Part shown: one piece after another, positions 1,873-24,323 of the stretch
Layout of the letters: each line of letters starts with the position of its first letter
How positions within the stretch are numbered: the first letter of the stretch is position 1
IMG/VR virus record: IMGVR_UViG_3300022693_000563
Coordinates: 1 to 25,893 of that record
Strand: one strand, 5' to 3'
Origin: a virus
DNA: 25,893 bases
Position numbers and translations under genes: made by a program
Notes under the pieces: generated by a model
The model's database searches: none
Told to the model about the DNA's origin: nothing
Seen by the model: only the letters and a program-made list of their open reading frames with translations

Positions 1873-1886
1873 GACCAGTGCTTCCT

Positions 1887-2279: not shown

Positions 2280-2288
2280 CGGGTACTC

Positions 2289-2708: not shown

Positions 2709-2896
2709 GGGGTGCCGCCCATGTTCTGCATGGTGGGTTTTGGTAGGGGGTAGGAGCGGACATGGGACGTTTTGCCCCGCATGGTGGAGGAGCGTAAGAC
2801 TTTGATCTTCGTGTCTGCGGCAGTGCCGCACTTGCAGTTGCCACCGCAATTTGCGGGGCTTTTACAGGTGGAGGATGCGTGGGTGTTACATGCCAT
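2705..2896 (-). CDS. 63-aa cysteine-rich, metallothionein-like miniprotein
   Basis: The first 23 residues hold five cysteines (3, 11, 17, 21, 23) and a histidine (6), ending in the compact NCGGNCKCG. The remaining 40 residues are basic and proline-containing with no cysteine. The density resembles small metal-binding proteins, although bacterial metallothioneins usually have more cysteines. The ATG at 2896 has only a weak ribosome-binding site (AGG in TATAGGTTC). The stop overlaps the next start as ATGA, which supports this frame over the competing frame of the 139-aa gene. Metal binding is inferred; biological role unknown. Confidence 0.65.
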   Translation of the reverse strand: MACNTHASSTCKSPANCGGNCKCGTAADTKIKVLRSSTMRGKTSHVRSYPLPKPTMQNMGGTP

Positions 2897-2950
2897 GGTA
2901 CTTGAGAACCTATAGGGGTTAGGGGGTGGAAGTCGTCCCCGGCGCAGGGG

Positions 2951-3337
2951 CTATGGTAACCAAATTTTAAGGGCGGTTCTATACATATTTAGCCAATCGT
3001 CTAGGCGCATTATGGTAAGGGAATCGCCGGTTTTCATGCGGGAGCGGCGGTTGATGACTACGGGGAAGTCGGGGCTACGAGCTTCGCGGATGCCTTTCTC
3101 GGCTTGGTGGAGGGCTTCGTAGAGCCGGAGTTTCTCGGTGCGTTTGGCTTCAACCCAGATATGGGGCGTGCCAGTTAGGTCTGCGGAACCGCCACCGGAA
3201 AGGTTGCGTCCGCCGCCGGAGAGGGGGGCTCTGAATATGACGTTGGAACCGTTGAAGAGACTTTCGTTGAAGTAGGTGGCAAGTTCCCGCTCGTAATTGT
3301 CACCCTTCCCTTTCGCACCACGGGGCTTTAAGGCCAT
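2951..3337 (-). CDS. PD-(D/E)XK nuclease, Holliday-junction-resolvase-like
   Basis: This 128-residue protein has the hallmarks of a small PD-(D/E)XK nuclease. An N-terminal helix carries a glutamate (GDNYEREL), an aspartate lies in SADLTG, and the E-A-K motif follows after a strand (HIWVEAKRTEKL). A helix and a strand (FPVVINRRSR) come next. Archaeal Hjc-type resolvases and phage resolvases share this order, so cutting branched DNA is the likely role; a VRR-type nuclease is the alternative. The start is the ATG at 3337, which overlaps the upstream stop as TAATG. An earlier TTG is in frame but would run into the upstream gene. The neighbouring HTH/zinc gene is translationally coupled to it. 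Confidence 0.7.
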   Translation of the reverse strand: MALKPRGAKGKGDNYERELATYFNESLFNGSNVIFRAPLSGGGRNLSGGGSADLTGTPHIWVEAKRTEKLRLYEALHQAEKGIREARSPDFPVVINRRSRMKTGDSLTIMRLDDWLNMYRTALKIWLP

Positions 3338-3657
3338 TACCAATAATCTCCGTTGTTGTTGTGCTGTTCGTTGTATTCAGTACACTTCTTGCAGATATAC
3401 TGCCACTTTGGGCGCGGTTGGTCGTCCCTACACCTTATGCAGGGCCGCTTCCACAACTCGGTCTTGCGAGAACTGGATAGAGAGACAACATATTTGGCTC
3501 CGTCAAAATCCTTTAATCCTTCTCGTTGTAAGATTCTTTTAACCGTATCGACACAGATGCCGAGGCGTCTGGCCATCTCTGTGTATGGTAACTTCTGTTT
3601 TAATGCTTTGACCAAATAGTTGATGTCGGACTTGGTGACAACAACCGACTTACCCAT
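3337..3657 (-). CDS. HTH plus zinc-ribbon DNA-binding protein
   Basis: This 106-residue protein has a clear helix-turn-helix at about residues 24-48 (YTEMARRLGICVDTVKRILQ), typical of Hin/MerR-like or sigma-4-like HTHs. A zinc-ribbon candidate follows with C73-x2-C76 and C89-x2-C92. It is probably a transcription regulator. The chosen ATG at 3657 has a strong GGAAGGAGG ribosome-binding site six bases upstream; a longer in-frame start at 3702 lies inside the promoter region. It is the first gene of the leftward block and sits about 20 bp downstream of the conserved promoter/operator element at 3678-3700, so it may regulate itself. Confidence 0.8.
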   Translation of the reverse strand: MGKSVVVTKSDINYLVKALKQKLPYTEMARRLGICVDTVKRILQREGLKDFDGAKYVVSLSSSRKTELWKRPCIRCRDDQPRPKWQYICKKCTEYNEQHNNNGDYW

Positions 3658-3677
3658 CGAACCTCCTTCCAATATCA

Positions 3678-3700
3678 GTGACAAAGTTTTAGCATTATAC
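3678..3700 (-). promoter_or_regulatory. leftward promoter/operator, copy A
   Basis: This 23-nt element matches the one at 6234-6256 with only two mismatches. On the minus strand it holds a perfect -10 hexamer TATAAT (3694-3699) followed by CTAAAACTTTGTCAC. No good -35 is seen at 16-18 bp, so an activator or a phage factor may be needed. It lies 20 bp upstream of the HTH/zinc-ribbon start codon. The downstream half of the dyad seen in copy B is degenerate here (GCAT instead of TCAC). Confidence 0.6.
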
Positions 3701-3738
3701 ATATAAGTCCTTATAAATAATTAACAAATACGATCAGC

Positions 3739-3763
3739 CGACCGGGGCGGAAGACCCCGGTCG
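3739..3763. other. perfect 9-bp GC-rich hairpin
   Basis: CGACCGGGG (3739-3747) pairs with CCCCGGTCG (3755-3763) around a 7-nt loop. No T-tract follows on either strand, so a classical intrinsic terminator is unlikely. It lies upstream of the leftward promoter at 3678-3700 and next to the TTAACG array, which suits an origin or regulatory structure; a rho-type or bidirectional terminator is also possible. Confidence 0.5.
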
Positions 3764-3787
3764 TTGGGTGTCTTCAGTTTTGTGTTG

Positions 3788-3930
3788 CGTTAACGGGTTG
3801 ACAGGTCTACAACCCGCGTTGACGATCCGTTAACGTATTAACGCAAACAAGAACTAAAGACAAACAAGGAGAATAAATGCTTCGCATTATTCTCCTTAGT
3901 GTTAAAGATTAACGTGTTAACGTGTTAACG
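3788..3930. repeat. TTAACG motif array (candidate origin iterons or operators)
   Basis: Six exact TTAACG copies start at 3790, 3830, 3838, 3909, 3917 and 3925, with one variant TTGACG at 3819. The last three are spaced exactly 8 bp apart. Two copies sit in the palindrome CGTTAACG (3788-3795, 3828-3835). An inverted repeat CGGGTTG/CAACCCG (3794-3800, 3810-3816) lies between them. The region is non-coding, AT-rich and next to the 3' end of the primase-helicase gene. Such clusters are typical of initiator- or repressor-binding sites. Confidence 0.55.
3866..3897 (-). terminator. probable intrinsic terminator after primase-helicase
   Basis: Two arms, 3866-3880 and 3884-3897, form a 14-bp stem with one bulged A and a 3-nt loop. 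Read leftwards, the stem is followed by a T-rich stretch (TTGTTTGTCTTTAG), as expected for an intrinsic terminator of the primase-helicase transcript that ends at 3932. The stem has moderate GC content, so efficiency is uncertain. Confidence 0.55.
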
Positions 3931-3931
3931 C

Positions 3932-5959
3932 TCACAGACCATCAGCGTCCATCCCCAGCCACCTACGAATTTCATATTGCGGAACCTTCAGCAGTCTACT
4001 GATCTCGGAGGAGCCGAGGCCTTGTGTCTTGGAGATGTGAAGGGCCTGTTGCTTCCGGGATTTGGTGGAGACGATGAACTTCTTGCCGCTGATCAGGTGT
4101 TCGCACCAGCCGATGTAGTGAGTTTGGTGCAACTCCGTCTGTTGCCTGACCTTGCCGAAGCTGACCTGTGTAACCATTACGATTCTGCAATCGTTACCGG
4201 CTTGTGCGCCTAGGTAGGTATAGGGCGTGAACTCCCTGCCGTCGGATGTGTGGACGTATAGGTTAGCGTCGTCCAGACCGGCCTTTGCTTTGACATCGTT
4301 CTTGTCTTGGTAGACTTGGGTGATGAAAATCTGGGTATCGACATCGGTGAGTTGCGCCGTCGATCCGGCCTCACGACCTAGACCAGCGTCCCCTGGTTTG
4401 TTTCGGTGGTGGACCAAGACAACCGAGACCCCTTTGTTTCTGACCGTTTTTGCCACGAGGTTTACCTTCGCCCACTCGGTGGGGCTTGCTTCTTCGAGGC
4501 CACGGAAGGCGTTGCGAATTGTGTCGATGACAAGGATGTCAGGCTTAACAACTTCGAGCCATTCGCCGAGTAGGTTGAACCCCGCTTGCGACATCAGGTC
4601 CATCTCGCCACCGTCTTCGGGGGCTATGAGGGTTGGTGACCATAGGGCGAAGTGTTCGTTGGTGTATCCGAAAGTGTCGTTGAAATCCTTCATCCTCCGC
4701 AGGGTGGTACGCCTTGGATTGTCGTAGTCTAGGTAGAATACCTTGGCCAACTTGCCCATTTCGTAGGGGCCGAAGCTAGGCCTACCGGCGGCGAGGGATG
4801 TCAGCATCGCAGACAAGAAATAGCTCTTACCGTGGCCGTTGAAGCCAACGACCTGAGTAATCGTTGCTTCGGGGATCAGTGGGTCAACCCAGAACGGTTC
4901 GTCTGACAGGTTAGCTATAAGGTCATCGATGGCCGGGGCGTAGATGGGAACGAGGCGACTCGGTGGGACAATCGCCGTTTCCTGTCGCACTATGAGCTTG
5001 TCTTTGCGTATGCCAGCCTCGTCGTAGTCGTCTGGGTAGTTCCTTCTGTCCATATCTTGGGCAGATCGCATCTTCTGGAGCAGCCATAGCTTTAGTTCTT
5101 CGGCGGAGTAGGACTGAGGATCAAAAAAGGATTGATAATAGTTAGTTACGGTCTGTATTAGACTGTCTCCAACAACACCTTTTCGGACCATCTGACCACA
5201 AAACCGGACCATCCAATCATCTGTTCCGTCCCCATCCCGTAATTTTCGTCCCAGTATGGCGACACGGTTTTCGGTTTGCTCGCTGATGGACAGCGATTGC
5301 TCTGGGGTAGCTACGGAAATTGCAGAAAGGTTAAGGGTGTCGAAGCTGAATGCTTCCTCGGAGTCGGTAATTTCTGTAGGGTTTCCCTGCCACTCGTGGT
5401 CGGCGAGGTCATCGAAGCTGTGGTGTTCGGCTATTTCCCACTTGTATTGGTGGGTGACTTCACGCTTTTCGTTTAGCTTGACGGACGGTGGCATTACCAC
5501 GTACCCGCCATCACCCCTAAGGTCTAGGCCTTGGATGTTTACCCATTCTCTGGCGGTGCCGCCAACCTTATTCCCGAAACGCTTACCCTGCATGGGGTGC
5601 GCGAAATAGTAATGGTGCCCCCTCGTGGTCTTGACGGCTATCGGTGTGGTCAGGTTCTTCTTTTTTACGTAAGCCTCTGCCTCGGCGTTGTCGCAATCTA
5701 ATACGATCACGCCACTGATAGCGCCCGTGACTAGGGCCAGATTAAATATCTCTACCCTAGTGCCGCTTGATGTCGGTGCGCCATTATCGAACCAATCCTC
5801 TACCTCTTCCATGGTGGTGGATCGTGTTTGATATTCCTTCCAGCCAGCCAGGGGCTTCTTGCCGCTTACGGACAGGGGGATAATTGTCCATCCGCGATCT
5901 ATTGCATCGACAGCCTCGTCATACAGAAGTGCCTTTAGTTCTTCTTTTCGATCCGTCAT
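3932..5959 (-). CDS. Prim-Pol / RecA-like helicase replication protein
   Basis: This 675-residue protein fuses a bifunctional primase-polymerase domain to a RecA-fold ATPase. In the N-terminal part the metal-binding LDCD (D88, D90), the TTRGHHYYF motif (H115/H116) and LDLRGDGGYVVMPPS (about 146-159) match the archaeo-eukaryotic-type Prim-Pol family. The ATPase has Walker A GFNGHGKS (372-379), Walker B ILVID (475-479) and VVLVHHR (about 514-520), as in RepA/AAA_25 helicases. A short C-terminal HTH-like helix pair (EISRLLKVPQYEIRRW) may bind DNA. It should prime and unwind phage DNA. The ATG at 5959 is chosen for the AGGA eight bases upstream; ATG 5968 and an upstream start at 6013 are possible. 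The 5' end overlaps the Cro-like gene by 41 bp. Confidence 0.9.
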   Translation of the reverse strand: MTDRKEELKALLYDEAVDAIDRGWTIIPLSVSGKKPLAGWKEYQTRSTTMEEVEDWFDNGAPTSSGTRVEIFNLALVTGAISGVIVLDCDNAEAEAYVKKKNLTTPIAVKTTRGHHYYFAHPMQGKRFGNKVGGTAREWVNIQGLDLRGDGGYVVMPPSVKLNEKREVTHQYKWEIAEHHSFDDLADHEWQGNPTEITDSEEAFSFDTLNLSAISVATPEQSLSISEQTENRVAILGRKLRDGDGTDDWMVRFCGQMVRKGVVGDSLIQTVTNYYQSFFDPQSYSAEELKLWLLQKMRSAQDMDRRNYPDDYDEAGIRKDKLIVRQETAIVPPSRLVPIYAPAIDDLIANLSDEPFWVDPLIPEATITQVVGFNGHGKSYFLSAMLTSLAAGRPSFGPYEMGKLAKVFYLDYDNPRRTTLRRMKDFNDTFGYTNEHFALWSPTLIAPEDGGEMDLMSQAGFNLLGEWLEVVKPDILVIDTIRNAFRGLEEASPTEWAKVNLVAKTVRNKGVSVVLVHHRNKPGDAGLGREAGSTAQLTDVDTQIFITQVYQDKNDVKAKAGLDDANLYVHTSDGREFTPYTYLGAQAGNDCRIVMVTQVSFGKVRQQTELHQTHYIGWCEHLISGKKFIVSTKSRKQQALHISKTQGLGSSEISRLLKVPQYEIRRWLGMDADGL

Positions 5960-6158: not shown

Positions 6159-6233
6159 ACTCCTAACTCCTTCTGGTTATGGGTTCTTCCTTTTCTCACA
6201 AACCGGACAGCTAATCAACCTAGTCCCATAAAC

Positions 6234-6256
6234 GTGACAAAGTTTTATCACTATAC
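6234..6256 (-). promoter_or_regulatory. leftward promoter/operator, copy B
   Basis: The element shares 21 of 23 bases with 3678-3700. It contains GTGACAAAGTTTTATCAC (6234-6251), an imperfect dyad with 14 of 18 positions symmetric (half-site GTGAYAAA). Read leftwards, a -10-like TATAGT lies at 6250-6255, so the dyad would cover the transcription start. A repressor bound here would block leftward transcription. Confidence 0.6.
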
Positions 6257-6260
6257 CTAG

Positions 6261-6289
6261 TTGTCTTTTATTTCAGACTGATATATAAC
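6261..6289 (+). promoter_or_regulatory. rightward sigma-70-like promoter
   Basis: TTGTCT (6261-6266, 4 of 6 matches to the -35 consensus) and TATAAC (6284-6289, 5 of 6 matches to the -10) are separated by exactly 17 bp. Transcription would start near 6296, about 30 bases before the ATG at 6327, which has a GAGGAG ribosome-binding site. The promoter lies 4 bp from the operator-like dyad, so the same regulator may influence it. Confidence 0.55.
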
Positions 6290-11114: not shown

Positions 11115-11564
11115 GTGAAGATCAATGACGCTGGGTTGGAGATCATTAAGCACTACGAGGGTTACTCTTCGTCTGTCTATCGTTGTCCAGCCTCGCGTCT
11201 GACGATAGGTTGGGGCTCGACATGGGACCATAACGGCGATCCCATACGGGAAGACCAGCCGGATATAGACGAGGAATACGCTGAAAAATTATTGCTGCGG
11301 GAAATTCACCATACTGAACACGCAATTGCTAGGCTGGTTAAGGTTGGGATGACCGCGAATTCGTACTCGTCTCTTACTTCTTTTATATACAATGTCGGCA
11401 GCGGAAACTTTCAGTCCAGTACGTTGCGGATGAAGCTGAACCGTGGAAATTATTACGGTGCCGCCGACGAATTTCCTAAGTGGAGGAGGGGTGGTGGTCG
11501 TATTCTGAGGGGTCTAGTTAGACGAAGGAAGAGCGAGCGAGACCTATTTCTCTTAGACCTCTAG
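11115..11564 (+). CDS. GH24 endolysin (phage lysozyme)
   Basis: This 149-residue protein has the GH24 catalytic pattern E-8aa-C/D-5aa-T: E15 in HYEG, C24 in YRCP and T30 in LTIGWG, as in phage lysozymes that replace the T4 aspartate by cysteine. It hydrolyses the MurNAc-GlcNAc bond of peptidoglycan. No SAR or signal segment is present at the N-terminus, so release should depend on the upstream holin. The GTG start at 11115 abuts the previous stop and follows a GGGGGA motif. The 3' end overlaps the convergent thioesterase gene by 12 bp. Confidence 0.9.
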   Translation: MKINDAGLEIIKHYEGYSSSVYRCPASRLTIGWGSTWDHNGDPIREDQPDIDEEYAEKLLLREIHHTEHAIARLVKVGMTANSYSSLTSFIYNVGSGNFQSSTLRMKLNRGNYYGAADEFPKWRRGGGRILRGLVRRRKSERDLFLLDL

Positions 11565-11927
11565 GTCGCGAAGGGCATCCCTTAGGGTATCGGGTAGTTC
11601 AGTTGGCTTACCGTCGCGGGTGAATACGTTTACGCAAGTAGCGTGGGCCGCTTCCTCCCCCCTAACGAACACCTCGTAGTCTGTAGTAACTGACTTCCCG
11701 CCAATTTTTATGACCTTCGAGAAGATCATCACGTTGCTGGGGTATGTAATCTCTGTCTTAAAGTCCATATCGATATGAACCATAACGTGATCCCATCGGC
11801 TACCTAGCTGTGCATACAATATAGCGTCATCGAATAATTTAACCCGCTCATGGGATACCCAGGCGGCTATGGCCAGATGGTTCGCGTGACCCTGCGAGTC
11901 GATGTCTGTGAACCTGACTTCAACCAT
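11553..11927 (-). CDS. 4HBT-type hotdog thioesterase
   Basis: This 124-residue protein matches the small hotdog acyl-CoA thioesterase family (YbgC/4-hydroxybenzoyl-CoA type). RFTDIDSQGHANH at residues 5-17 fits the D-x-D-x2-G motif with D10 as catalytic aspartate, the WVSHERVKLFDD helix follows, and central strands carry TYPSNVMIFSK. It should hydrolyse a thioester, acyl-CoA or acyl-ACP, in the cytoplasm. It is an unusual gene for a phage late operon. The ATG at 11927 lies two bases after the stop of the lipoprotein gene and has no good ribosome-binding site, so translation probably depends on coupling. It is the last gene of the leftward block and converges on the endolysin gene. Confidence 0.8.
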   Translation of the reverse strand: MVEVRFTDIDSQGHANHLAIAAWVSHERVKLFDDAILYAQLGSRWDHVMVHIDMDFKTEITYPSNVMIFSKVIKIGGKSVTTDYEVFVRGEEAAHATCVNVFTRDGKPTELPDTLRDALRDLEV

Positions 11928-11929
11928 TT

Positions 11930-12442
11930 CTATAACGTGTTTGACGGATTATAAACCGGTCTCCCGCTCATCAGTTGTCTGGCGAATTGGGGTAGGATTT
12001 GGAACACGGACACTATGCACTTACCCTTAGCCAGAACCATTAACCACACCTTGTCAGTCTCACGGTAGGCAATGAATACTGTGTCTGCGTCAACGCTAGT
12101 TATGGGCGGAGAGGCGTTATGCGCGGCCACGGTCTGCATGGCATCGCCATCGGTAAGAAGCATGGTGGTGGCGTTTGGATGACGTTCCTTGATTTCAGCC
12201 ATAATGAAGTCCAGATGGCGGTTGACTTGACCGCATTCGGTACTCCATGTCGCTATTTGCTGATGGATGGTTAGCGGCGGTGGTTTTAAGAGAACCGCCT
12301 TGCCTGAGGGCGTGCTGGTGACACACGCAGACACCACCAGGGCAAGGAGGACGGAAGCAAGGAACCTACCGCCTTTTCTTGGTGTTTCCCTGAGGTAACC
12401 CAACCCAGTTCGTTTTAGTAATCCAGCCACCAGAATTTCCAC
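11930..12442 (-). CDS. lipoprotein with lipobox, unknown function
   Basis: This 170-residue protein has a basic n-region, a hydrophobic core (FLASVLLALV) and the lipobox VSAC with C40 as the lipidated residue. The mature part has a paired-cysteine potential (about C54 and C137) and an alpha/beta pattern. The GTG at 12442 has AGAGGAAG five to six bases upstream but gives a long signal peptide and a 77-bp overlap with the giant gene. A TTG at 12403 would give a more normal signal length. It could be an outer-membrane anchored virion or exclusion lipoprotein; it is not close to the endolysin in the way of a spanin. Confidence 0.7.
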   Translation of the reverse strand: MEILVAGLLKRTGLGYLRETPRKGGRFLASVLLALVVSACVTSTPSGKAVLLKPPPLTIHQQIATWSTECGQVNRHLDFIMAEIKERHPNATTMLLTDGDAMQTVAAHNASPPITSVDADTVFIAYRETDKVWLMVLAKGKCIVSVFQILPQFARQLMSGRPVYNPSNTL

Positions 12443-15400
12443 TTCTACTTCCTCTAGTTTTAGCCTCTCCTCCAGCGAATTCAGCCGCGCTCTCTTGGAA
12501 ACTCTTTATACCACCAAGGACGGGTATCCGTCTTCCTACCGATCTGCCGAAATCTCGTGCCTTGCTGGGGTTGTCGATGTCCATCGCGGCGGAAACGCCC
12601 TTGAGAGCATCAACTCCGATACCGACGGATGGTCCGGCGACGGCAGACAAGACCCGTATCTGGCCGTAGGAGCCATTGTCTGCCTGGGCTGCGGAGTTAA
12701 ACGCCATCTCCGCTACCAGACCAAGGCCACCCATGGCCAATAGGCCTTCTACCCACCAACCGAGGAACTCATTTGGTGTGAAGCCGAGGGTGGCGAGGTT
12801 GTCTTCGTTCATAAACTGGCTGTTTTCGATGTCGCCGCCGAGGGCTTTGGCGATATCACCAACAAATGTTTTGTCTAGCCTACGTTCACGCAGCTTTCTT
12901 TCGGTGCCGGACTTGCCGCCACGGCCCAGTATCAGGTCTTTGGCGGCGTTGGCACCCATGCCGAAACCCGCGCCAGCCGTGAGGAGTAGGGCTAACGGGG
13001 CAACGTTTCCGTGTCCAGCTTCTTTTATGACATCCTTTGACATACGTCCCATCATTATCGGGAATGATTTAAGCTGGAATGCCAGGCCGCCCCACGGTGT
13101 CTGTGCCCACATGGGAACATCGTTGGGGTCAGGCGTGAAGATGGTCTCGTTTACGAAACGCATGATGGCGTAGCGTACTTTATCGTCGTTTACGTGGGAT
13201 CGGATATCGTCCAGACGAGGGCCACCGGCTTCGCCATACTCCTCTAGACCATACCTCTTCAGGAATCGCATGGCCTTTTTGTGGCGGAAATTTCCACCTC
13301 TGCCGTTAGAGACTTGCCGTCTGGCCGCGTCAGCCTCTGCCTTGAGGGCATTGAAGCCTACGAGTGCGGAGACTTCCCTTTGTAGGTTGGTCCATGGGGT
13401 AAGTAGCGTTGCGTTGAAGAAGGCATTGGTAAATCGTTGGGAACCATCACCAGCCATGTAGGTCATGTTATCGTGGATCAGGTTTTCAATGCCAACGCCG
13501 ATATCGCGTGCTGCTTGCTTGTATGAGGGGTCACCCATCCATCGTTGCGCCCAGCCCTTGCCCCAGGCTCCAAGCTTACCGCTTCTTACCAGCGGCAAGA
13601 CAACGTCGGGGAAGGAAGTCAGGGTTGTCCAGGACAGCAGGGAAACCGAGTTGAATGTTTTGATCTTCCTGGTCGTGGAATAAGCTCTCTCCGAACCGAG
13701 TGGTTTACGGTTCAGGACGTTCAGATACCTTACCATCCAATCAGTAGTGTCCTTGCTGGCGGGAACCTCGAAGTCAGCGAGGGCGTTCACGATGGCCTTC
13801 ACCCGGATTTTATATTGGTCATATTGACCTTTGTTTAGAGTGGTTACATCCATCACCTCTAGGAGAAGGTTAATGGCATCCTGTTTATTCTTTGTCTTAG
13901 ACTGCTTGGTCGAGCCGAGCATGTCGGAGACGCGGACTAACAAAGTGCCAGCATCATCCTCACTTAGGGCCAGCCGGGGAATAATCTCGTCTGTTATTTG
14001 GGCTTCGACGCCCATTTCCTTACGGCCAACACCGATTGTCTTATTTCTTAGTAAGATGTCTGCGGCCCCACGTAAGCCATGCTCGGAGACATGGATGTAT
14101 GCGTCTGCGCCGTGGTTGTTGGTGCCGAACTCTTTCGCCATGTTTATGGTTCTAGTGGTTTTGTCGTAGTACCTAGACAAGATACCCTCTAGGTCAGTCA
14201 CCATGTATTCGCCCATTTCAGGGAGTTCGTCTGGGGTAAGCTTCAGGAACCGCTGCATGAATGGGTTGGATGCGCTAGACATACGCCTGTGGAGAACGTT
14301 GTCTACGTCAATTCGACCATCCGTATCGATCATCCTTTTAATGATCTCGGTTGATATGCGGTTGGCTTCCCTGGCGTCCATGTTGATACCGCTCGCTCTG
14401 GCTTCCCGCATGAAATGGGCGACCAGCACCCTGTTGAACTTGCCTGGGTTGGCCTGGATAGCACCCGTATCCCAAACCTGGGGGACGTAGTATTTCTGGT
14501 TGAGTTTTGCCGCAACGTCTCCGATTGGAATGCCGAGTTCCATCATGGTATTGAGTTCGTCCTTAAAGGACTTGGCAATATCCATGGCCACTATGCGCTC
14601 TCGTGCGTTCAGTGTCGTTAAGTCCTGTGCCCGCATTGCACGGATAATTCTTTCGTGACTAGCGGGTACGGCTTGCGTGCCGAGTTTCTTGTTGACGGGA
14701 TAGATGAGGCCTTGGTTCTTTAGGAGCCAGCGTTTGCCGGAGCCAACAGAATCAGGGAGCGACCTAAGGGCGCTGATGAGGGGAGCAACCTTCTTCGCAA
14801 GATCGGAGCTTTGTTTCTGAAACAGGCCAGCCCCGCCTTCTGGCTTTACGATGTTGCCGAACCAATGGGCACCGACTCTGCGTAGGTGGACGGAGTTCTC
14901 TCGTATCCAATTGCCGCCTTTCCCTTGGCCACTGTGGCGTTGGACTGCTGCGAAATCGTCCATTGTGGGCTCTTCGCGGCGAAGTGTTCGTCTGAGGAAG
15001 CCCTGTAATGCGTCAGGAACGCCGAGTCGCTGTGCTTCGGCACCTAGGCCTACCATGTCGCCTGGGTTAATGTTTCGTCCAAGATCGATCTGATCCATCA
15101 TAACCTTGCCAGCCAGGGACGTATCGTCCATGCCGCCAATCATGTCTGCGAACATGTTGGGTAGGTCGCTGTCGAATACGTCGGCGTCAACGTGCTTAAC
15201 GTGGGCTGGGTTGAATACGACTATGGCTTCAACCGCTGATCCATTCACGGGATCAAGGTCGGTGACCCTAAAGCTATCGTAGCCCAAGTCCCGCATGAAG
15301 CTGGTTAGGATGGTCTTGGCCTCTTCTTCTGAGGTTCCCCCGCGTTTGATGCTATCGATAATTATTTCGAAGAGATCGTCACCAGCAAAGAAGCCACCCG

Positions 15401-18400
15401 TCCGCAGTTCTTCGATGAGATTTTTGCCCACGTGTTGGGTGAACATTCTCTTGTCTGCCATGTCGGTGATAAGCCAGGTGATGTCGTTGTGGTTGCCCTT
15501 GATGGAGTAGAAGGTGTTGGCGTCGAAATTAAACGTATCTTCCATCCGTACCAGGAGCGGTAGAACTTTTGGCTGTCTTTGGATACCGGTTGTGTCTGCG
15601 AAGAGCGTCCATAAGACTTTCTCTTCCTGGTATAGAGCCGCCAATTTCTTTTGTACCTTGAAGAGATTACTGGCTGGGCTGTCTACGACCTCGTCAATGG
15701 ACCCATCGGCTATGCTCGCCGCCCGCCTTTTGGTTGTCTCGCGGTAGTGGATGCCGTCTAGGTAGGACAAGAGGTCTGTAATTTTTATGCGGTTAGCGGC
15801 GATCTTGTCTGCGTACTCGTAGCCTATGCCCTTCCTGTTCGAGCTAAGGTTGGCGTCGTCTACCATCTGTCTCATAGAGGTTCGATGGCCCGCTTCGCTA
15901 TAATCGATAGCCAGTGAATTGGCTTTGGTGAGATATATTCCTTCGCCGAACAGGGCTTCAGGGCCTGAAGGCTCTAGGATTACATCTGGGTTGGTGGCGC
16001 GGCTGAACTTACCGCCGTTTGGCGTGCCGTGGTAGTACACGTAGTTCATAAGGTCTTCTGTTTCGTTTACACCCACGAATTCCCGTGCGTATACCTCGCG
16101 GGCAGGGCTGTAGTTTCCTATGGTCTCCTGTGCGTACTTTGGGGCGACCTCGTTCATCATGGAGAAGCTGCCGGTGTTCCGTACCGCGCTTCTAACGGGT
16201 GTGTTTACGGCAGATTTGTTGGCAAGCATATCGCCACCAAAGGTCAGGTAACGGTATTGCTGACGAAGTGTTTTGTTTCCCAGGAGACCGTTGACGAAGT
16301 AGCTGACCTGTTCGATTAGCTCATCGACCATGGTTTCGAGGCGGCCCTTCAGCTTAACCTTGCCGAAGTTGTCTGTCTTGCTGACCCGGTTACCGAGGTA
16401 GTTGGCGAAACCATCCACGAACCATTCTTCCGCCAGCCTTTCTTGGACAGCCTGGGGCGGTAGCCCGTCCAGGGCACCGTAAGCCGAGCTACGCTTTGTG
16501 ACCTCTAGGGCTCGTGGGTCTCCTAGGGTTACTGCTTCCTTGTACATGCCGTTGATGATCTGGCGTTGCTCCAGGGAGAAGTTGCCACGTACCAGGAGGT
16601 GGCCGATTTCGTGTATGACCGTGTATTCCTGGCCCTTCGTGTTTGGACGGAGCCCTATGAAGTCCGCGCCACCGTCGCCCTTCTTGAGGGCCATGCCCAT
16701 TTTACGCATGGTCTTGCGAAGCTGGTTGAATTCCGGGCCATCCTGTGCGTGCCGGAAGACACCGAAGCTACCGTCCTGGGCTTCTGTTCCGAATAGGCGC
16801 TGAACATCGTCGAGGCTCATAACGTTGGCCCTGTTCACCGCGTTTTGCTGGGTCTTGCCCATCAGGTTCATCATACGGTAGGCCAGAAGCCTTGAGTTTG
16901 ATTCAACCTTCTTGTCTCGGTGGGTAATCTTTCTTAATATTTCCTTAACTTCTGCGGTAGCCCTGTTGGGAATGCCGTTTTCTTCGCCCGCACCCCTTGT
17001 CTGGGCGATCTCTACATCCATTGCGCGGTTGACCATGCTGGATTTGAATGAGATGTCTGGGTTTTCTTGCCAAACCCGCTTCAGGCCAGCCGCTGCGAGG
17101 TTCATCTCGTCTTCTTTGCCACGGATGAAGGCGCTTACGATTGCATGTTGGAAGTCTTCGGGGGTTTCGGCTCGTTTTCCACCAACTATTAGCTCGGTCC
17201 CGGCGGGATAATCCAGTTCCGCTATCTCCGGGGCGGTCAAAAGCTTCCTGTTTAGTGCAATGTTTAGGTCGCGGACACGTGCGTTGGGCGAATCGGTGCC
17301 TGAGGACAGTATCTCAGCTACGATTTCGGGCATCGACATCTCGTTGACAGACGAAAACTCGACGCCGGTTGGGTTGTCTGTGGCAACCGTTGTCTTTCCG
17401 CCAATGTCGGCGAAGATACCGTCGGCCTTGGCTACGAGTTTGGCGACGATGTCGTCGGCACCCTCTATTAATGCTTTGCGCTTGGCAAGAGCCCGGCGTT
17501 TGTGGAACTCGGATTGACGGTTCTGCGTGGCTACCATTTCGCCGTCTGGGCTAACGCGGATACCCTCACCAATCTTCGTTTTAGGTGTGTTGCGGCCAAC
17601 CTGTTTACGCATATCCACCTGTACTTCGTGGATAATGTTCAGTACGCGGTTGGCTAGGGTAGTCAACCTATCGCTTACACCTTGGTCTGTCTTGTTGAGG
17701 GCCAGGTCTGCTATGGGATCATTGTATCCCAGACCGTCGATGTCTGGTATCCCGTCGGAATCGCCGCTTAACAGGCTGTCGGCCAGGGCCTCTATTTCCT
17801 GTTGGCGGGCCAACTCGCTTTCGCCTGTTCGTCTGGTTGCCACGGCTTCCAGGGCTTCAGGTGTCAGGGTTCCAGCATAGCTTGGGTCTGGATTTTCAGC
17901 CTGGAAGTCCTGAACTTCTCTCATCGCCCTGAGAAGTTTGTTTCTAACATGGAACGAGTTCATGTACTGGAAGACTTCTCGTCCCTGGTCGTCTTCGCCT
18001 GTCTTTTTCCCCCGGTCCAATAGGCCCACTCGTGTTTTCGCCTGGCCCTTGGCGTTGTAGTATTTCTTGGAACCGTCCTTACCCTTATACGCAATGCTTT
18101 CCTGTACGAATGAATTTACCTCGGCCACGCCGGACGCTGTTACCTTCCGGCCACCAAGGGCTTCTCTTACCTTTTCGGGGTCTCCGTCGGCGAGAGCCCT
18201 TTCGATGTTGTTCTTAATGGTTTCCCAGTTAACAAGTTTGTCAGCGAGGAACTTGACGCGCCCAGGCTTTGAGCCAGAGGTGTTGCCCGCTATCTTTTTC
18301 TGCATGTCTAGGTACTTGTTGGCGTTGAAGTCCCTGTCGGGCAAGATGCGCTCGAACAGCGGGATTAGTTTAGGGTCTACGTTGTTGTCTGCCAGGAAGA

Positions 18401-21400
18401 AACGTTCCATGACGCTGCGGACTTTGACGGCAATTTTTTCCCATAGGGACATAAGTTCTGTTGGTGTCCCGGCCTTGCCGCGAGAGATTGCGAATTGGGA
18501 GAACTGCTGTGCGAAGAACTCGGCGGGACTATGTAGTTCGTTGTCTGCCGCACCCGGAAGACGCTTGGTGAGGCTTCCGATGTCCACGCCTTCGTCGGTG
18601 ATATACCTTCCCATGGCTTCCCAGAACATGCTCTTGTCTTTGGGTGTGAGGATGTTGGCGTAGGCCCAATGACCTATTTCGTGGATGACTTTCTGGAAGT
18701 CCGGTGTGTTGCTGGTTCCGTCGCCCGCCTCACCGATGCCGATGGTGTTGGCCGTGTCGGCGCTACGGGTGGATTGGGGCATGAAGGCGTAGCCAGTTGG
18801 GTCATTCCTGAACCGTGGCAGTGCGCTGTCTGCGCCACTAATGTTGCGGAGGACAGACATCACCGCGTTTAATTCACCGAGCGGACGCGCCCGCATGATC
18901 ATGGCCAATTGCTGCATGGATGCATTGCGGCTGGCGTTGTTCCATTTGATTCCATGAGGGGCGTTGTAGCTGATGATGTCGTTAAGAAGCTCCATGTAGC
19001 TGATGTAGCCCTTGTAGTCGTCTGGGGTTTTGAAGTGCGGGGAACTCCAGGCCATATTCTCGTAGGCCTGAAGTTCCTCTACGACATCCCCCAGATACTT
19101 AAATTTGCCCTGTAGGCTTTTGCCAGCAAAGGTGGGTAGGGTGGCTTGGTCGATCTCAATGTTTGCTGCCTGGGCGAAGCTGATTGGTCGCGTGCCGGGA
19201 TCAACAATGTCTGGATCGTCCTTGAGCTTGCCTACTTTCTCTACGTTCTGTGGTTTCTTGACGGGCGCGTAATCGCCGCCGTCTATTGGTGAGAATGATG
19301 CGTCTCTGGCCCTGCCGCGTAGGCTTGGATCGCTCCAGCCAACGACGAAGCTTTCGCCCTTCTGTTTGCCAAGGATGGCCTTGACGGGGTTGTTCTCGCC
19401 AAGCTGCTTGGGTGATGCGTGCCTGAACTTGCCCTTATATTTACCGCTAGTGATGGCCAGGGCGAATGACATTCCGTCGGGGATATCATCGCCGAATTCG
19501 GACATGGCCATATGGACAGCCCTATTCTCTGTATCGGCGCTCAGTTCCGCTTCGAGTACCGAGGCTTCGTCTACCGGTGTGGTGTCGGGCTCTTCGACGG
19601 CGTTTTTATAGGTGTTGGTGTTCTTGTGGTTCGGGTTGTGGAAGGCGCGTCCAGAGCCAGCCGGGGCCAGTGCAGAGGGTTGGAGGTGGCCTTGTTCCAG
19701 GGCCAGCTTAATCCTTTTGTTGAATATCTTTATTAACTCTCGTTTGATCTCGCTTTCGTATTCGACGACGACATCGTAATCCAGGTCGTCTGTCCTTATG
19801 ACGAAATCGTCGCCATCTTTGGTTACTTTGCCGACGGTTTTGCCCAGGAACTTGATTGTCTTGTTGGGGCCCTTGCCGGTTATTTTGAAGTGGTTGTTCA
19901 GGTCGATTTCCACGCCATCGGCTTCGATGACCATGGGCTTGGCTTTGGCGCGGGGCTTGGTGGCGGGCGCGGCGTTGGCCAGCATTTCGAAACGCTTCTG
20001 GATTTCAGTTAGTTCTCTTGTTAGGAGCGCGGGGTCTCTATGTGATTCGAACCTGACGGTTGCATCCTTGGTGAGATTGACCTGTAACTCTTGGAGCGCA
20101 GCCGCGTGTTGCGACTTGTCTGCAATTGCGCGGCCTACCAATTTGTCTTCTTCGGTGACCTTGGTGTTCAGGGTGTCACCTAGTTCTTTTATGGCCTTTG
20201 GTTTATCTGTGACGACGCCCTTGTCTGCGCCTTCTTCGAGGGCGGCCATGCCTTTTTTCACCCATCTACGGTTCTTCCAGGCGGCTGGGTCTAATTTTCT
20301 TAACTCTTTCTTGAGTTCTTTAATGGCCCTTGTGTGTGCGTTGACCTGTATGTCGCTGTTCCAAGGCCCCTTGGCCTTGGCGGCAATACTCTTTAGCCGT
20401 TGCTCTTCTCTTATCTCACTGATCAAACGTTGGACCTTGGCGGGGACACTTTTCATTCTACTCTGTATGGCGGAGCCCTTGACTTCCGCTTCGGATGACT
20501 GCGTTAGGCGTTTCATCGCGTTGTTGATATCCGCGATAATTGCTTGTGGGCTATCAATGGCATCAGCCGCCAGCGGTGCGTCGGCCTTGGTGAGATACAT
20601 GCGGTTCGTGACGGGGTCTACAAAAACCACCGAGCCCTTGGTATATGCGGTGGAGCCACCCTTTTGCTCTATTAGCATTCCTGGGTGGACCTTCATTTTC
20701 TCGTAGACAACGCCATCGATCTTCTCGAACTTGGGGATTGACCGTTTGTTGATGTCACCAATGCCGAAGTCCATCTTTGTCTTAGGGGTCCGACGAAGCA
20801 AATTCCCTGCTTTCGTGCGGGCCAGTTTGTAGGCGAAGACCTCTCCGGGGTGCTGGGGCCCGCCCTTGCCCCAGGATCGTTTGCCGGTTTTGGCCCAAGC
20901 GAACTTGGAAACCTGTTTGGGGAAACGGCTGACTACGCTTTCGGGGGACTCAAGTATGATTTGCTGTAGGGCGTTTTCGCTGTCTAGCTGACGGATTTCA
21001 GGGATGAGACCCTTTGAGACCAGGTCTTTTCTGATGGCTGCGATATCGATGGTGTCTTCGTCGGCCCCGTCCTTAACTGCTTTGCGGAGGTCGCGCACTA
21101 CGGCACGGAGGGCCACTACGATCTCTACGTTTTCACCGGATAATTCGGTGACTTTCTTGCCGTCTGCGTTGGTGACCTTGGTTTCTTTGAATTTGTTCGG
21201 GTCTTTGACCATCCTTACTTTGCTGGCTGAAGCTAAGGAACCCTCTTCTATGGCGGTCATGGCGGCCATTTCGCCGGTGAGGACTTCGCCATCCCGCTTC
21301 AGGGTGTCGGTAAGACGACCGGTGTAGCCGTATTTATTGGATGTATTTCCGGGTCCAGACAAAGCACCCTGAACCTTGCCCAGCTTGTCTACGCTGTAGG

Positions 21401-24323
21401 TTATGCCGTTGATAACCTGAGTGCCCTGAACGATTTGGCGACCTTCATGTGGTGCAATCGTTACGTCGCTGTCTTTGTGGGCGACGAAAACCTTATCTCC
21501 GTCTACGCGGCGGGCCCTGATCTTCTTGATGTTTATGTTTATGAATTCCTGGATGAACGCCTTGTTCATGCCGGTTGCGGCTTTGGCCTCGTGCAGCATA
21601 GCCGTGGCTTTTTCGAGGGCCTCGCGTTCCTGGGGGGTAAAATCTTCCAGGCTGTCTGGCTTGACAACTGCTTTGCCTGACCGTTGTGGGACCACGAGGT
21701 TGATGTCGGCGGCTGGGATGGCCCCGTCTTTGAACATTTGGCGAGACAGTATGGCGTGTGTCTTGGAGCCGAACCGCTCCATCACTTCTGCCATTAACTC
21801 GCCGGGATTGAACTTACTGCCCATGCCCTCGGAGAGTTCAGCGAACAGTTGGATCGCGTTGTCTTCAAGGTACTTGTGATACTCCAATAGGGACGATGCC
21901 AGTGCTTGAGCCCTGGAAGCCTCGCTTACTAGAGCGGTATCGCCGCTCACCTGGTGGGTGAGAAGGGTCTCGACAAGGTCCGAACTGAATACTCTTGGGC
22001 CGTAAGGCATGTTAGGAGTGACTTCGGAGCCTTCCGCGAGTGCGCTGAATACGGAGATTACCCTGTTCTTTGCGTTTATCCCGTCTACCTTGCGATTCAT
22101 CCACGCAATGCGAGCGGCAGTCTTCTCTGCCTTGGAGGAAAGGCCTTTGACTAAGGCTCTGAGTTCTACGCGGGCTGCTTTGGCCCAACCCTCGAAGGCG
22201 ACATCGGGATCAATGGCCGCGAGGAACGTTAGGGTTTTCCCTTCACTGGACGCCGCGTCTATGACGGCATCATCTAGGTCTGGGAGAGCCTCGGCGTCTG
22301 GGGCGTCGGTATCGGCAACCTTTGCGGCGGCTGCGTCGTCTGCATCTACTGAGGCCAGTATCTTCTCGGCCTCGTTGACAATGTCGTCTTCGCGTGAAGC
22401 GGTAGCGACCTTGTCGTCTAGCTCGGCCTGGGCATCGTCGGCTGCCTTCTTTGCCGTCTTGCGGTCGGCTTGCATACCCTTGCGACGGCCTAAGTGATCC
22501 TTGAGAGTTGCTTCCTCTTCGGGTGTGGCGGTGCCCCGTTTGACTTTCCGGCGAATATTCTTGATTTCGCTTTCCTGGGTCTTGAGATTTTGGGTGATTT
22601 CCTCTTCGAGGGCCCTGTTTTCGTTGATGCGAGCGGTTACTTCGGCATCGGCGTCGGGGACGCCCGCCATATCGTCGGCATCGAAACGAACACCGGGCTC
22701 GCCAGCCGCGTCGGGTTCAATGGGTGCGGCTGCTTCGGCGTCAGGGGCGGCTTCGTCTCCGGCTCTGGCGGGAGTGCCTTCGGGGACGGCTGCGGCTGGG
22801 GCGGCTCTTGCCGCCGCGCCAGGCTGGCCACCGGCATCGGGTGGGGGAGCGCCACCTTCAGCGGCGTCAGCGGCGTCCATGGAGCCAGCTAGGCTACGGG
22901 CCGCGTTCTTCATGCCATCACCGGTGTCTTCGACCATGGCTTTTAGGTATCGTTTGTATGCGGTTTCGAGGTCGTTGGCGGTTCTTCGCAGACTTTCGAC
23001 CTTATTCATGTCTGCCATTGGGGCGTCAGGGTCACCGGCACTCTTGGCGGCGGCAGCTTCGAGGGCGTCGGCTTGGTCGCGTAATTCCCTGATGATACTT
23101 GGGGCCCTACGCATGGCCTCGTGTGTGGTTAGGGCGTCCTGGGCCTGTAGGATTTCCGTCATGTCGTCAGCGTCGATTAGACCTCTATCAACGCCGTCTT
23201 GCAGAACGTCCTTGAGTGCTGGTGCGTCCACCGTGTTGCCGTCTGGGTCTGTATAGCGTCCCCCCTGGACAGCGGCGTTAAGGTGGGCGTCGGGAATATC
23301 GATACGGTCGAAATGGTTCTCTAGGTCGCCCTCTAACTCTTGTGTCTTGGCGGCCCAGTGGGCGTCAACCTCTTCGGGGCCAACTTCGTCCGCATCCAGA
23401 CGAGCCTGGAGTTCCGCTTCGGCCTCTTGTCTTGCTGCCAGGCCCTCGGCTTGTCCCTCTTTCCAATTGCTTTGTTTCCACTCTAACTTACCCTTCTTCA
23501 GGGCAGACCACCTGGGACGGATAGGGTTGACGGCACCCAATGCACCGAATATTCCGCCTAGACCAGCGCCCGCCAGCCCGCCGATGCCAGCCTCGAAGGC
23601 TAGTTGGGTTTTAGAGAACTCGTCTTGAAGCCCGATATTGATATCGCGGGTCTGGATACCGGCTGAAGCGATACCTTCCGTGCCGACGCCGATTACACCT
23701 TCAGTGAGGGCACCTCTTTTTATCCCGCCCCATAAGCCAGCCTTGAAGGCGGACTTTCCGGCTTCCGCTGCGGCCCTTGCCGCAACCTTTGCGCCAGCGC
23801 CACCGAAGCCGAAACCGAGTATGTTGACGGGGTCCAGGAGGACCGCGCCCGCGTTCTGCCAGAAACCCTCGGCACCACGCCCACCTTCTTCGTAGAAGTT
23901 GGGCATCTGCTCGTAGACGCTTTGTAGTCTGGCTAGACGAGCATTCTGGATGTTGTTGTTTTCGAAGGTTTCGAGGGCCTCGCCGACAATATAACCCGTG
24001 TTCAGGTTGCTCCATGCGCGGTCGGAGAAAAATCTTTCGATGGCCTCATCTATGTCAGAGAAGGTCGAGCCATCCTTATCGTAGTAATAATCATATATGT
24101 CCTGGATAAACCTGGTGTCGGCCAGTTTCTCTAGGGCTTCTTGCTTGGTAAGGTTTGCCGCATAACCTAGGGCATTAGCGTCCTTTGCGGCGGGGTCTAG
24201 TTCTCCCGTAGGAGATGGGATGTCTTCCCAGATGTTGTAGCTCGAACTTGCGCCATCAGAGATCATTTCGCCAGTTCTAGAAACACCACCTATTTCAGGG
24301 TAGCTCGCGTCACCTTTTGCCAT
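12366..24323 (-). CDS. giant 3985-aa polyvalent virion-type protein (zincins plus ART)
   Basis: A single frame of 11,958 bp. Architecture: glycine-rich hydrophobic segments at about 154-185, 193-223 and 240-265, with an LLDPVNILGF motif often seen in phage internal/ejection proteins; Ala/Pro/Asp-rich linker about 478-545; coiled coil about 545-690; zincin-like HEIGH at 1881-1885 with candidate third ligand E1935; second HEIGH at 2571-2575 with E2632/E2633; an ADP-ribosyltransferase-like domain about 2760-3045 (YHGT H2765, GIYLT Y2797, later FNPAHVKHV); and a C-terminal region with hydrophobic stretches near 3778 and 3857-3878. This fits polyvalent phage proteins delivered with DNA to modify or protect against host factors. 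ATG 24323 has GGAG seven bases upstream. Overlapping opposite-strand frames, up to 302 codons, are shadows. Function of each domain is inferred by motif only. Confidence 0.85.
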   Translation of the reverse strand: MAKGDASYPEIGGVSRTGEMISDGASSSYNIWEDIPSPTGELDPAAKDANALGYAANLTKQEALEKLADTRFIQDIYDYYYDKDGSTFSDIDEAIERFFSDRAWSNLNTGYIVGEALETFENNNIQNARLARLQSVYEQMPNFYEEGGRGAEGFWQNAGAVLLDPVNILGFGFGGAGAKVAARAAAEAGKSAFKAGLWGGIKRGALTEGVIGVGTEGIASAGIQTRDINIGLQDEFSKTQLAFEAGIGGLAGAGLGGIFGALGAVNPIRPRWSALKKGKLEWKQSNWKEGQAEGLAARQEAEAELQARLDADEVGPEEVDAHWAAKTQELEGDLENHFDRIDIPDAHLNAAVQGGRYTDPDGNTVDAPALKDVLQDGVDRGLIDADDMTEILQAQDALTTHEAMRRAPSIIRELRDQADALEAAAAKSAGDPDAPMADMNKVESLRRTANDLETAYKRYLKAMVEDTGDGMKNAARSLAGSMDAADAAEGGAPPPDAGGQPGAAARAAPAAAVPEGTPARAGDEAAPDAEAAAPIEPDAAGEPGVRFDADDMAGVPDADAEVTARINENRALEEEITQNLKTQESEIKNIRRKVKRGTATPEEEATLKDHLGRRKGMQADRKTAKKAADDAQAELDDKVATASREDDIVNEAEKILASVDADDAAAAKVADTDAPDAEALPDLDDAVIDAASSEGKTLTFLAAIDPDVAFEGWAKAARVELRALVKGLSSKAEKTAARIAWMNRKVDGINAKNRVISVFSALAEGSEVTPNMPYGPRVFSSDLVETLLTHQVSGDTALVSEASRAQALASSLLEYHKYLEDNAIQLFAELSEGMGSKFNPGELMAEVMERFGSKTHAILSRQMFKDGAIPAADINLVVPQRSGKAVVKPDSLEDFTPQEREALEKATAMLHEAKAATGMNKAFIQEFININIKKIRARRVDGDKVFVAHKDSDVTIAPHEGRQIVQGTQVINGITYSVDKLGKVQGALSGPGNTSNKYGYTGRLTDTLKRDGEVLTGEMAAMTAIEEGSLASASKVRMVKDPNKFKETKVTNADGKKVTELSGENVEIVVALRAVVRDLRKAVKDGADEDTIDIAAIRKDLVSKGLIPEIRQLDSENALQQIILESPESVVSRFPKQVSKFAWAKTGKRSWGKGGPQHPGEVFAYKLARTKAGNLLRRTPKTKMDFGIGDINKRSIPKFEKIDGVVYEKMKVHPGMLIEQKGGSTAYTKGSVVFVDPVTNRMYLTKADAPLAADAIDSPQAIIADINNAMKRLTQSSEAEVKGSAIQSRMKSVPAKVQRLISEIREEQRLKSIAAKAKGPWNSDIQVNAHTRAIKELKKELRKLDPAAWKNRRWVKKGMAALEEGADKGVVTDKPKAIKELGDTLNTKVTEEDKLVGRAIADKSQHAAALQELQVNLTKDATVRFESHRDPALLTRELTEIQKRFEMLANAAPATKPRAKAKPMVIEADGVEIDLNNHFKITGKGPNKTIKFLGKTVGKVTKDGDDFVIRTDDLDYDVVVEYESEIKRELIKIFNKRIKLALEQGHLQPSALAPAGSGRAFHNPNHKNTNTYKNAVEEPDTTPVDEASVLEAELSADTENRAVHMAMSEFGDDIPDGMSFALAITSGKYKGKFRHASPKQLGENNPVKAILGKQKGESFVVGWSDPSLRGRARDASFSPIDGGDYAPVKKPQNVEKVGKLKDDPDIVDPGTRPISFAQAANIEIDQATLPTFAGKSLQGKFKYLGDVVEELQAYENMAWSSPHFKTPDDYKGYISYMELLNDIISYNAPHGIKWNNASRNASMQQLAMIMRARPLGELNAVMSVLRNISGADSALPRFRNDPTGYAFMPQSTRSADTANTIGIGEAGDGTSNTPDFQKVIHEIGHWAYANILTPKDKSMFWEAMGRYITDEGVDIGSLTKRLPGAADNELHSPAEFFAQQFSQFAISRGKAGTPTELMSLWEKIAVKVRSVMERFFLADNNVDPKLIPLFERILPDRDFNANKYLDMQKKIAGNTSGSKPGRVKFLADKLVNWETIKNNIERALADGDPEKVREALGGRKVTASGVAEVNSFVQESIAYKGKDGSKKYYNAKGQAKTRVGLLDRGKKTGEDDQGREVFQYMNSFHVRNKLLRAMREVQDFQAENPDPSYAGTLTPEALEAVATRRTGESELARQQEIEALADSLLSGDSDGIPDIDGLGYNDPIADLALNKTDQGVSDRLTTLANRVLNIIHEVQVDMRKQVGRNTPKTKIGEGIRVSPDGEMVATQNRQSEFHKRRALAKRKALIEGADDIVAKLVAKADGIFADIGGKTTVATDNPTGVEFSSVNEMSMPEIVAEILSSGTDSPNARVRDLNIALNRKLLTAPEIAELDYPAGTELIVGGKRAETPEDFQHAIVSAFIRGKEDEMNLAAAGLKRVWQENPDISFKSSMVNRAMDVEIAQTRGAGEENGIPNRATAEVKEILRKITHRDKKVESNSRLLAYRMMNLMGKTQQNAVNRANVMSLDDVQRLFGTEAQDGSFGVFRHAQDGPEFNQLRKTMRKMGMALKKGDGGADFIGLRPNTKGQEYTVIHEIGHLLVRGNFSLEQRQIINGMYKEAVTLGDPRALEVTKRSSAYGALDGLPPQAVQERLAEEWFVDGFANYLGNRVSKTDNFGKVKLKGRLETMVDELIEQVSYFVNGLLGNKTLRQQYRYLTFGGDMLANKSAVNTPVRSAVRNTGSFSMMNEVAPKYAQETIGNYSPAREVYAREFVGVNETEDLMNYVYYHGTPNGGKFSRATNPDVILEPSGPEALFGEGIYLTKANSLAIDYSEAGHRTSMRQMVDDANLSSNRKGIGYEYADKIAANRIKITDLLSYLDGIHYRETTKRRAASIADGSIDEVVDSPASNLFKVQKKLAALYQEEKVLWTLFADTTGIQRQPKVLPLLVRMEDTFNFDANTFYSIKGNHNDITWLITDMADKRMFTQHVGKNLIEELRTGGFFAGDDLFEIIIDSIKRGGTSEEEAKTILTSFMRDLGYDSFRVTDLDPVNGSAVEAIVVFNPAHVKHVDADVFDSDLPNMFADMIGGMDDTSLAGKVMMDQIDLGRNINPGDMVGLGAEAQRLGVPDALQGFLRRTLRREEPTMDDFAAVQRHSGQGKGGNWIRENSVHLRRVGAHWFGNIVKPEGGAGLFQKQSSDLAKKVAPLISALRSLPDSVGSGKRWLLKNQGLIYPVNKKLGTQAVPASHERIIRAMRAQDLTTLNARERIVAMDIAKSFKDELNTMMELGIPIGDVAAKLNQKYYVPQVWDTGAIQANPGKFNRVLVAHFMREARASGINMDAREANRISTEIIKRMIDTDGRIDVDNVLHRRMSSASNPFMQRFLKLTPDELPEMGEYMVTDLEGILSRYYDKTTRTINMAKEFGTNNHGADAYIHVSEHGLRGAADILLRNKTIGVGRKEMGVEAQITDEIIPRLALSEDDAGTLLVRVSDMLGSTKQSKTKNKQDAINLLLEVMDVTTLNKGQYDQYKIRVKAIVNALADFEVPASKDTTDWMVRYLNVLNRKPLGSERAYSTTRKIKTFNSVSLLSWTTLTSFPDVVLPLVRSGKLGAWGKGWAQRWMGDPSYKQAARDIGVGIENLIHDNMTYMAGDGSQRFTNAFFNATLLTPWTNLQREVSALVGFNALKAEADAARRQVSNGRGGNFRHKKAMRFLKRYGLEEYGEAGGPRLDDIRSHVNDDKVRYAIMRFVNETIFTPDPNDVPMWAQTPWGGLAFQLKSFPIMMGRMSKDVIKEAGHGNVAPLALLLTAGAGFGMGANAAKDLILGRGGKSGTERKLRERRLDKTFVGDIAKALGGDIENSQFMNEDNLATLGFTPNEFLGWWVEGLLAMGGLGLVAEMAFNSAAQADNGSYGQIRVLSAVAGPSVGIGVDALKGVSAAMDIDNPSKARDFGRSVGRRIPVLGGIKSFQESAAEFAGGEAKTRGSRSGNSGGWITKTNWVGLPQGNTKKRR

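Follow-up and report, generated by a model that had tools for sequence, protein, structure and literature searches.

Organization of the locus

The stretch analyzed here, referred to as the window, is an entire virus record from IMG/VR (25,893 bases). A single minus-strand open reading frame of 3985 codons, beginning with ATG, takes up 46% of its length (Table 1), and ACTGGAGTATCCG, located 5′ of this ATG, is a plausible ribosome-binding site. ORF analysis confirms the uninterrupted gene of about 12 kb reported by a first-pass annotation, which had given no strand. Strongly hydrophobic segments are located only near the two ends of the protein (residues 241–266 and 3774–3794), in agreement with the mosaic layout described there, and its low-complexity linker is found as A/P/D/E/G-rich stretches at residues ~451–570 and 631–720. 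When searched whole and alone against Pfam, PHROGs and PDB, the giant protein has no significant match. The earlier statement that most of its residues cannot be named holds for such a search, but most of the C-terminal 850 residues are nameable and belong to a gp16-type scaffold that had been overlooked.

Table 1. Features of the giant gene and its upstream neighbor, in window coordinates
Feature	Residues	Positions	Strand	Basis and remarks
Giant gene, putative ejection-protein scaffold with inserted enzyme cargo	3985 aa	12366..24323	minus	ORF list, relatives
N-module, Gly-rich, hydrophobic, T7 gp16 TMH I-like	47–337 (best part ~145–270)	23313..24185	minus	Profile alignment, hydrophobicity
Low-complexity A/P/D/E/G-rich linker	~451–720	22164..22973	minus	Composition
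Zincin-like domain 1	~1744–1950	18474..19094	minus	Motif, conservation, model
Zincin 1 HEIGH	1881–1885	18669..18683	minus	Third ligand Glu1935 at 18519–18521
Zincin-like region 2 and conserved flank	2394–2716	16176..17144	minus	Motif, conservation
Zincin 2 HEIGH	2571–2575	16599..16613	minus	Third ligand Glu2633 at 16425–16427
ADP-ribosyltransferase (ART) domain, ART-PolyVal type	2737–3067	15123..16115	minus	Triad H2765, Y2797, D3016; profile
C-module, homologous to T7 gp16/TL-2011b internal virion protein and phrog_684	3137–3969	12417..14915	minus	Profile, profile–profile and fold matches
C-terminal hydrophobic part of C-module, place of T7 gp16 TMH II	~3740–3910 (boundaries approximate)	12594..13106	minus	Hydrophobicity, collinearity
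Upstream gene, position of a gp15-like tunnel protein (position only)	≥501 aa, ends at contig edge	24387..25892	minus	ORF

No homology to any gp15 protein was detected for the upstream gene. Directly downstream of the giant gene, a small minus-strand gene (11930–12365) encodes a lipobox protein (LVVSAC) that, judged by its sequence, looks like an outer-membrane spanin lipoprotein. The window also encodes a prim-pol/AAA primase and an endolysin. Between the endolysin and giant genes lies a minus-strand gene for a 124-aa hot-dog (4HBT-type) thioesterase-like protein (11553–11927; PDB 2cye, E = 3e-10), which has no match among 50,697 phage records and is possibly an auxiliary metabolic gene. The prim-pol gene lies between two direct repeats of 45 nt that share 76% identity (3668–3712 and 6224–6268) and are possible regulatory or replication sites.

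The C-module is homologous to gp16-type internal virion proteins

The profile phrog_684, annotated as a virion structural protein, is matched by the C-module of the window (E = 1.7e-10) and by those of 27 of the 28 family members. A second profile, phrog_342 (internal virion protein with endolysin domain), is matched by 12 of the 28 members (best E = 2.3e-22), by T7 gp16 over its full length and by the TL-2011b protein itself (E = 5e-210). These matches are collinear: residues 65–197 of one relative's C-module align to profile positions 531–674, and residues 573–772 of another to positions 1025–1201, which correspond to the end of gp16 that carries transmembrane helix (TMH) II (TMH positions of T7 gp16 from PMC8954989). 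In profile–profile alignments (hhalign), the C-module matches the cargo-free TL-2011b-type virion proteins of ~1,000 aa over most of its length (E = 2.3e-24) and T7 gp16 with E = 2.4e-6; the best E among reversed and 100 column-shuffled decoys, with gap columns removed, is 0.0028.

A viral fold library searched with the predicted structure of the ART domain plus C-module gives hits to core or internal virion proteins from LKA1, Ab05, JG068, VP2 and others (E = 6e-7 to 4e-5), and also to PolyVal-ART proteins. A PDB Foldseek search with the long multi-domain model of residues 2735–3934 returned nothing at E ≤ 0.001. The C-module is homologous, by these alignments, to proteins that are located inside the virion in other phages. 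This homology lends real support to the earlier suggestion that the giant protein enters the host together with the DNA.

Hydrophobic ends and the TMH I-like N-module

At the other end of the protein, the N-module aligns to residues 320–416 of T7 gp16, which contain TMH I (E = 0.0043, hhalign probability about 8%), and to residues 122–247 of the TL-2011b type (E = 0.0046). T7 gp16 and the TL-2011b type align to one another on those same TMH I residues (E = 0.0078). Each of the three alignments is weak and they agree with one another, which is consistent with a TMH I-like N-module. Across 28 relatives, nearly all strongly hydrophobic segments lie at one end of the protein or the other. A basic C-terminal tail, as in T7, was also considered; the window has TKKRR, but the relatives lack it as a conserved feature, and we dropped it.

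The cargo contains an ADP-ribosyltransferase and two zincin-like regions

By alignment, the linker, both zincin-like regions and the ART domain sit between the two gp16-homologous ends. This cargo of ~2,800 residues occupies a place where T7 gp16 has ~100 residues and TL-2011b-type proteins have ~14–110.

The ART domain carries the motifs YHGTP (at 2764) and GEGIYLT (at 2793), which contribute to the H-Y-D triad described for ART-PolyVal by Iyer et al. 2017 (PMC5512222). Of 22 relatives, 14 match the Pfam profile ART-PolyVal (PF18760; best E = 2e-9), while the window member's own segment matches only PARP in Pfam (E = 0.013). Where both the His and Tyr are present (n = 45), the third position is Asp in 42 members and Glu in three; some entire clades have lost the His or the Tyr. 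The profile match in relatives and the triad are those that define the ART-PolyVal/Tox-ART-HYD2 type and, together with the structural matches to PolyVal-ART proteins, they bear out the ART domain that the first-pass annotation had proposed.

Both HExxH motifs read HEIGH and are followed by a Glu as third ligand (H1881, E1882, H1885 and E1935 in zincin 1; H2571, E2572, H2575 and E2633 in zincin 2). Shuffled versions of the giant protein contain an average of 0.05 HExxH motifs, and none of 2,000 shuffles contained two at once. Zincin 1 and zincin 2 are themselves related (E = 3.6e-7). In the structural model of zincin 1, where pLDDT is mostly 75–93, strands precede the HExxH helix and the Glu-bearing helix comes last, the topology expected of a zincin; zincin 2 is assigned by its motif and its kinship to zincin 1. 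Searches of profile and fold libraries found no significant match between either region and a zincin family or a solved fold, and PDB Foldseek with residues 1740–2720 (a multi-domain model; mean pLDDT of models 67–69) found nothing at E ≤ 0.001. Such long multi-domain models are ill-suited to single-domain matching and, consequently, the PDB searches do not decide the zincin fold. The Pfam profiles MPTase-PolyVal and LPD38 had no match here, and the controls were likewise unmatched, which makes this comparison uninformative. The two zincin-like motifs originally proposed are conserved, each along with a third ligand; motif, conservation and predicted topology point to the fold, which the profile and fold libraries did not match. 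An ART domain and two zincin-like regions in one polypeptide amount to at least two unrelated effector domains in a phage protein, supporting the polyvalent mosaic layout that had been claimed.

Across 65 non-redundant members, both HExxH motifs are intact in 24, zincin 1 alone in 31 and zincin 2 alone in 10 (one of which ends at a contig end), and none lacks both. Zincin 2 is therefore altered in 31 members and zincin 1 in 9–10. Retention of at least one zincin has a hypergeometric P of 0.0014 if the relatives are assumed to be independent; the tree of relatives has one zincin 1 loss and about nine zincin 2 changes. With a single zincin 1 loss, independence fails, and we treat the retention as an observation only. 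Entire clades lack zincin 2 or the ART domain or have altered versions, so ejection requires neither of them.

A widespread single-gene family related to Roseobacter phage CRP-810

Phages related to Roseobacter phage CRP-810 encode a family of single-gene giants (~2,700–4,100 aa), to which the window's protein belongs. Scanning IMG/VR viral contigs with a C-module profile yielded at least 342 relatives, of which the best 80 were kept; among these, 69 of the 70 ORFs with a complete 5′ end span 2,717–4,121 aa. The module order, where modules are present, is always N-module, zincin 1, zincin 2, ART and C-module, so that the domain order sought in related phages was found in single ORFs. Since a single ORF with the same order recurs in 60-odd further contigs with complete 5′ ends, the giant ORF is not an assembly accident. 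The enzyme modules and both ends are the best-conserved parts; residues 1250–1600 are variable and often absent. In one clade (L012, L036, L044, L119, L124 and L127), giants of ~4,000–4,120 aa have no recognizable zincin 2 and a reduced ART domain. A search for named hosts in a genome collection found only MAG contigs, probably binned phage.

A tblastn search with the giant protein finds CRP-810, where gp36, gp35 and gp34 are collinear with residues 42–341, 1634–3052 and 3139–3973, respectively. The window and CRP-810 also share genes for a primase, an AAA ATPase, a nuclease and a Holliday-junction resolvase; consequently, we place the window phage as a relative of the CRP-810 family (PMC11288001). 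At the gp35/gp34 border, CRP-810 (positions 24061–24129) has a perfect 31-nt tandem duplication that breaks the frame (genome L002); a relative 91–94% identical to it (L017) is continuous across this border, and in other relatives the regions of gp36 and gp35 adjoin within one ORF. The three-gene annotation of CRP-810 may therefore reflect recent damage or a sequencing artefact.

A proposed working of the giant protein and its alternatives

The best reading of these sequence relationships is that the giant is a polyvalent protein built on a T7 gp16-type scaffold, encoded by a single gene and common in marine phages. Polyvalent phage proteins are already known; the gp16-type scaffold of the giant family is identified here. 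The window phage would be a podovirus-like phage of the CRP-810 kind, and we consider it probable that the giant serves as its third ejection protein, the T7 gp16-type one of the inner membrane, expanded by a cargo of ~2,800 residues. T7 gp16 spans the inner membrane by TMH I and TMH II, and its intervening body is located in the host cytoplasm (PMC8954989). The N4 virion RNA polymerase (vRNAP), another giant, is likewise a third ejection protein; its N-terminal domain inserts into membranes, and it also contains a HExxH domain (PMC12633501). The giant gene is syntenic with that of N4 vRNAP as the last gene of the head/ejection module, and in one relative a head protein is encoded upstream on the same strand.

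By analogy with these two proteins, several copies of the giant would be packed in the head and ejected via the tail, ahead of the DNA, and its hydrophobic ends would insert into the host inner membrane as do T7 TMH I and TMH II. If both ends are so inserted, then the cargo would face the cytoplasm, and its enzymes would be presented there prior to phage gene expression. Host proteins could then be modified by the ART domain at an early stage of infection, while the zincins could either cleave the giant itself to free the cargo or act on proteins of the host.

Could the zincins mainly be self-processing proteases, active either within the head or once the protein has been ejected? The giant would then be a polyprotein, with separate scaffold and ART pieces present in the mature virion or the infected cell. 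Iyer et al. proposed such processing for polyvalent proteins (PMC5512222), at least one HExxH is intact in all 64 relatives although either one by itself can be lost, and the CRP-810 module is annotated as three genes with breaks at module borders. However, its gp35/gp34 break is the perfect tandem duplication, and the 91–94% identical relative is continuous there, N4 vRNAP is packaged unprocessed (PMC5512222), and the pattern of one zincin 1 loss and about nine zincin 2 changes cannot be tested on the tree. We regard this account as tentative, a sizeable minority possibility. That the enzyme domains are structural relics within a long protein serving only for ejection or scaffolding is improbable: the frequent alteration of zincin 2, the rarer one of zincin 1 and the clade-wide losses of the ART His or Tyr agree with decay, but every catalytic position is intact in the window, the Asp of the ART triad is kept as often as described above, and the zincin 1 ligands are kept in 55 of 65 members against ~20–30% identity elsewhere.

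Very improbable is a reading as an N4-like vRNAP whose polymerase domain has diverged beyond recognition, with the zincins and ART riding along. The giant lies at the end of the structural module, like N4 gp50, and is similar in size; some relatives' N-modules weakly match phrog_2206 (virion RNA polymerase), and the vRNAP of Roseovarius Plymouth podovirus 1 (RPP1) has comparable enzyme motifs. However, the giant's middle scores E = 0.2–0.8 against the N4 polymerase profile, similar to reversed decoys (RPP1, the positive control, E = 1.8e-49), the poorly conserved and often absent residues 1250–1600 lie in that middle, and the C-module is of the gp16/TL type (E = 0.43 against the N4 C2 type). 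No RNA polymerase domain aligns, and we rejected it as a candidate; lacking a recognizable one, the giant is not filed as a vRNAP.

If the giant is indeed a gp16-type ejection protein with added cargo, the DNA-injection machine of a widespread family of marine phages itself contains effectors, and such enzymes would reach the host ahead of all phage gene expression. Two usually separate lines of research, on T7-type ejection proteins and on polyvalent conflict proteins, would be linked, and a scaffold is named for a family annotated almost entirely as hypothetical. The cultured CRP-810 (host FZCC0198) is available for testing packaging, cleavage and ADP-ribosylation. More broadly, gp16-type proteins could have a general cargo port at the point where TMH I meets the body, carrying enzyme batteries that differ by phage group and keeping at least one active zincin to free the cargo in the host cytoplasm; this generalization is rather unlikely. 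The examples on a gp16-type scaffold are two zincins with an ART domain in the giant, and an SNase with a zincin-like motif in phiA008.

Comparison with known systems

T7 gp16 and the other phrog_342 proteins, including the 1004-aa TL-2011b protein, share with the giant a C-module homologous over its length, an N-module resembling TMH I, a hydrophobic region at each end of the body and a gene that closes the ejection cluster. T7 gp16 (1318 aa) differs in its N-terminal transglycosylase; no SLT/lysozyme match was found in the giant, which instead has its ~2,800 other residues between the N- and C-modules. The P22 and Sf6 homologues of gp16 also lack a transglycosylase, which is not a defining feature (PMC8954989).

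N4-type vRNAPs resemble the giant as large ejected proteins with zincin-like motifs, encoded by the last gene of their module. The RPP1 vRNAP (CBX87992) in particular has an ART motif (YHGT at 1028) and two HExxH motifs that flank its polymerase (at 1291 and 2520). It is a precedent for the combination of two zincin-like motifs with an ART that the first-pass annotation had singled out. The order in RPP1 is ART, HExxH, polymerase, HExxH, whereas the giant has no polymerase and a C-module of another family.

The polyvalent proteins of Iyer et al. 2017 (PMC5512222) similarly combine several unrelated enzyme domains, the H-Y-D triad of ART-PolyVal and zincin-like motifs; they differ in MPTase-PolyVal and LPD38, unmatched here, and the giant's scaffold is of the gp16 type. 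The Aeromonas phage phiA008 protein UIS74281 (2050 aa; L005, 7102–13254) has the same C-module and a zincin-like HELGH motif, but it is half the giant's size, carries an N-terminal SNase domain and had no ART match. The collinear homologue of the whole giant is gp36-gp35-gp34 of CRP-810 (PMC11288001), 26–33% identical, deposited as three overlapping ORFs and annotated only as 'internal virion protein D' and hypothetical proteins.
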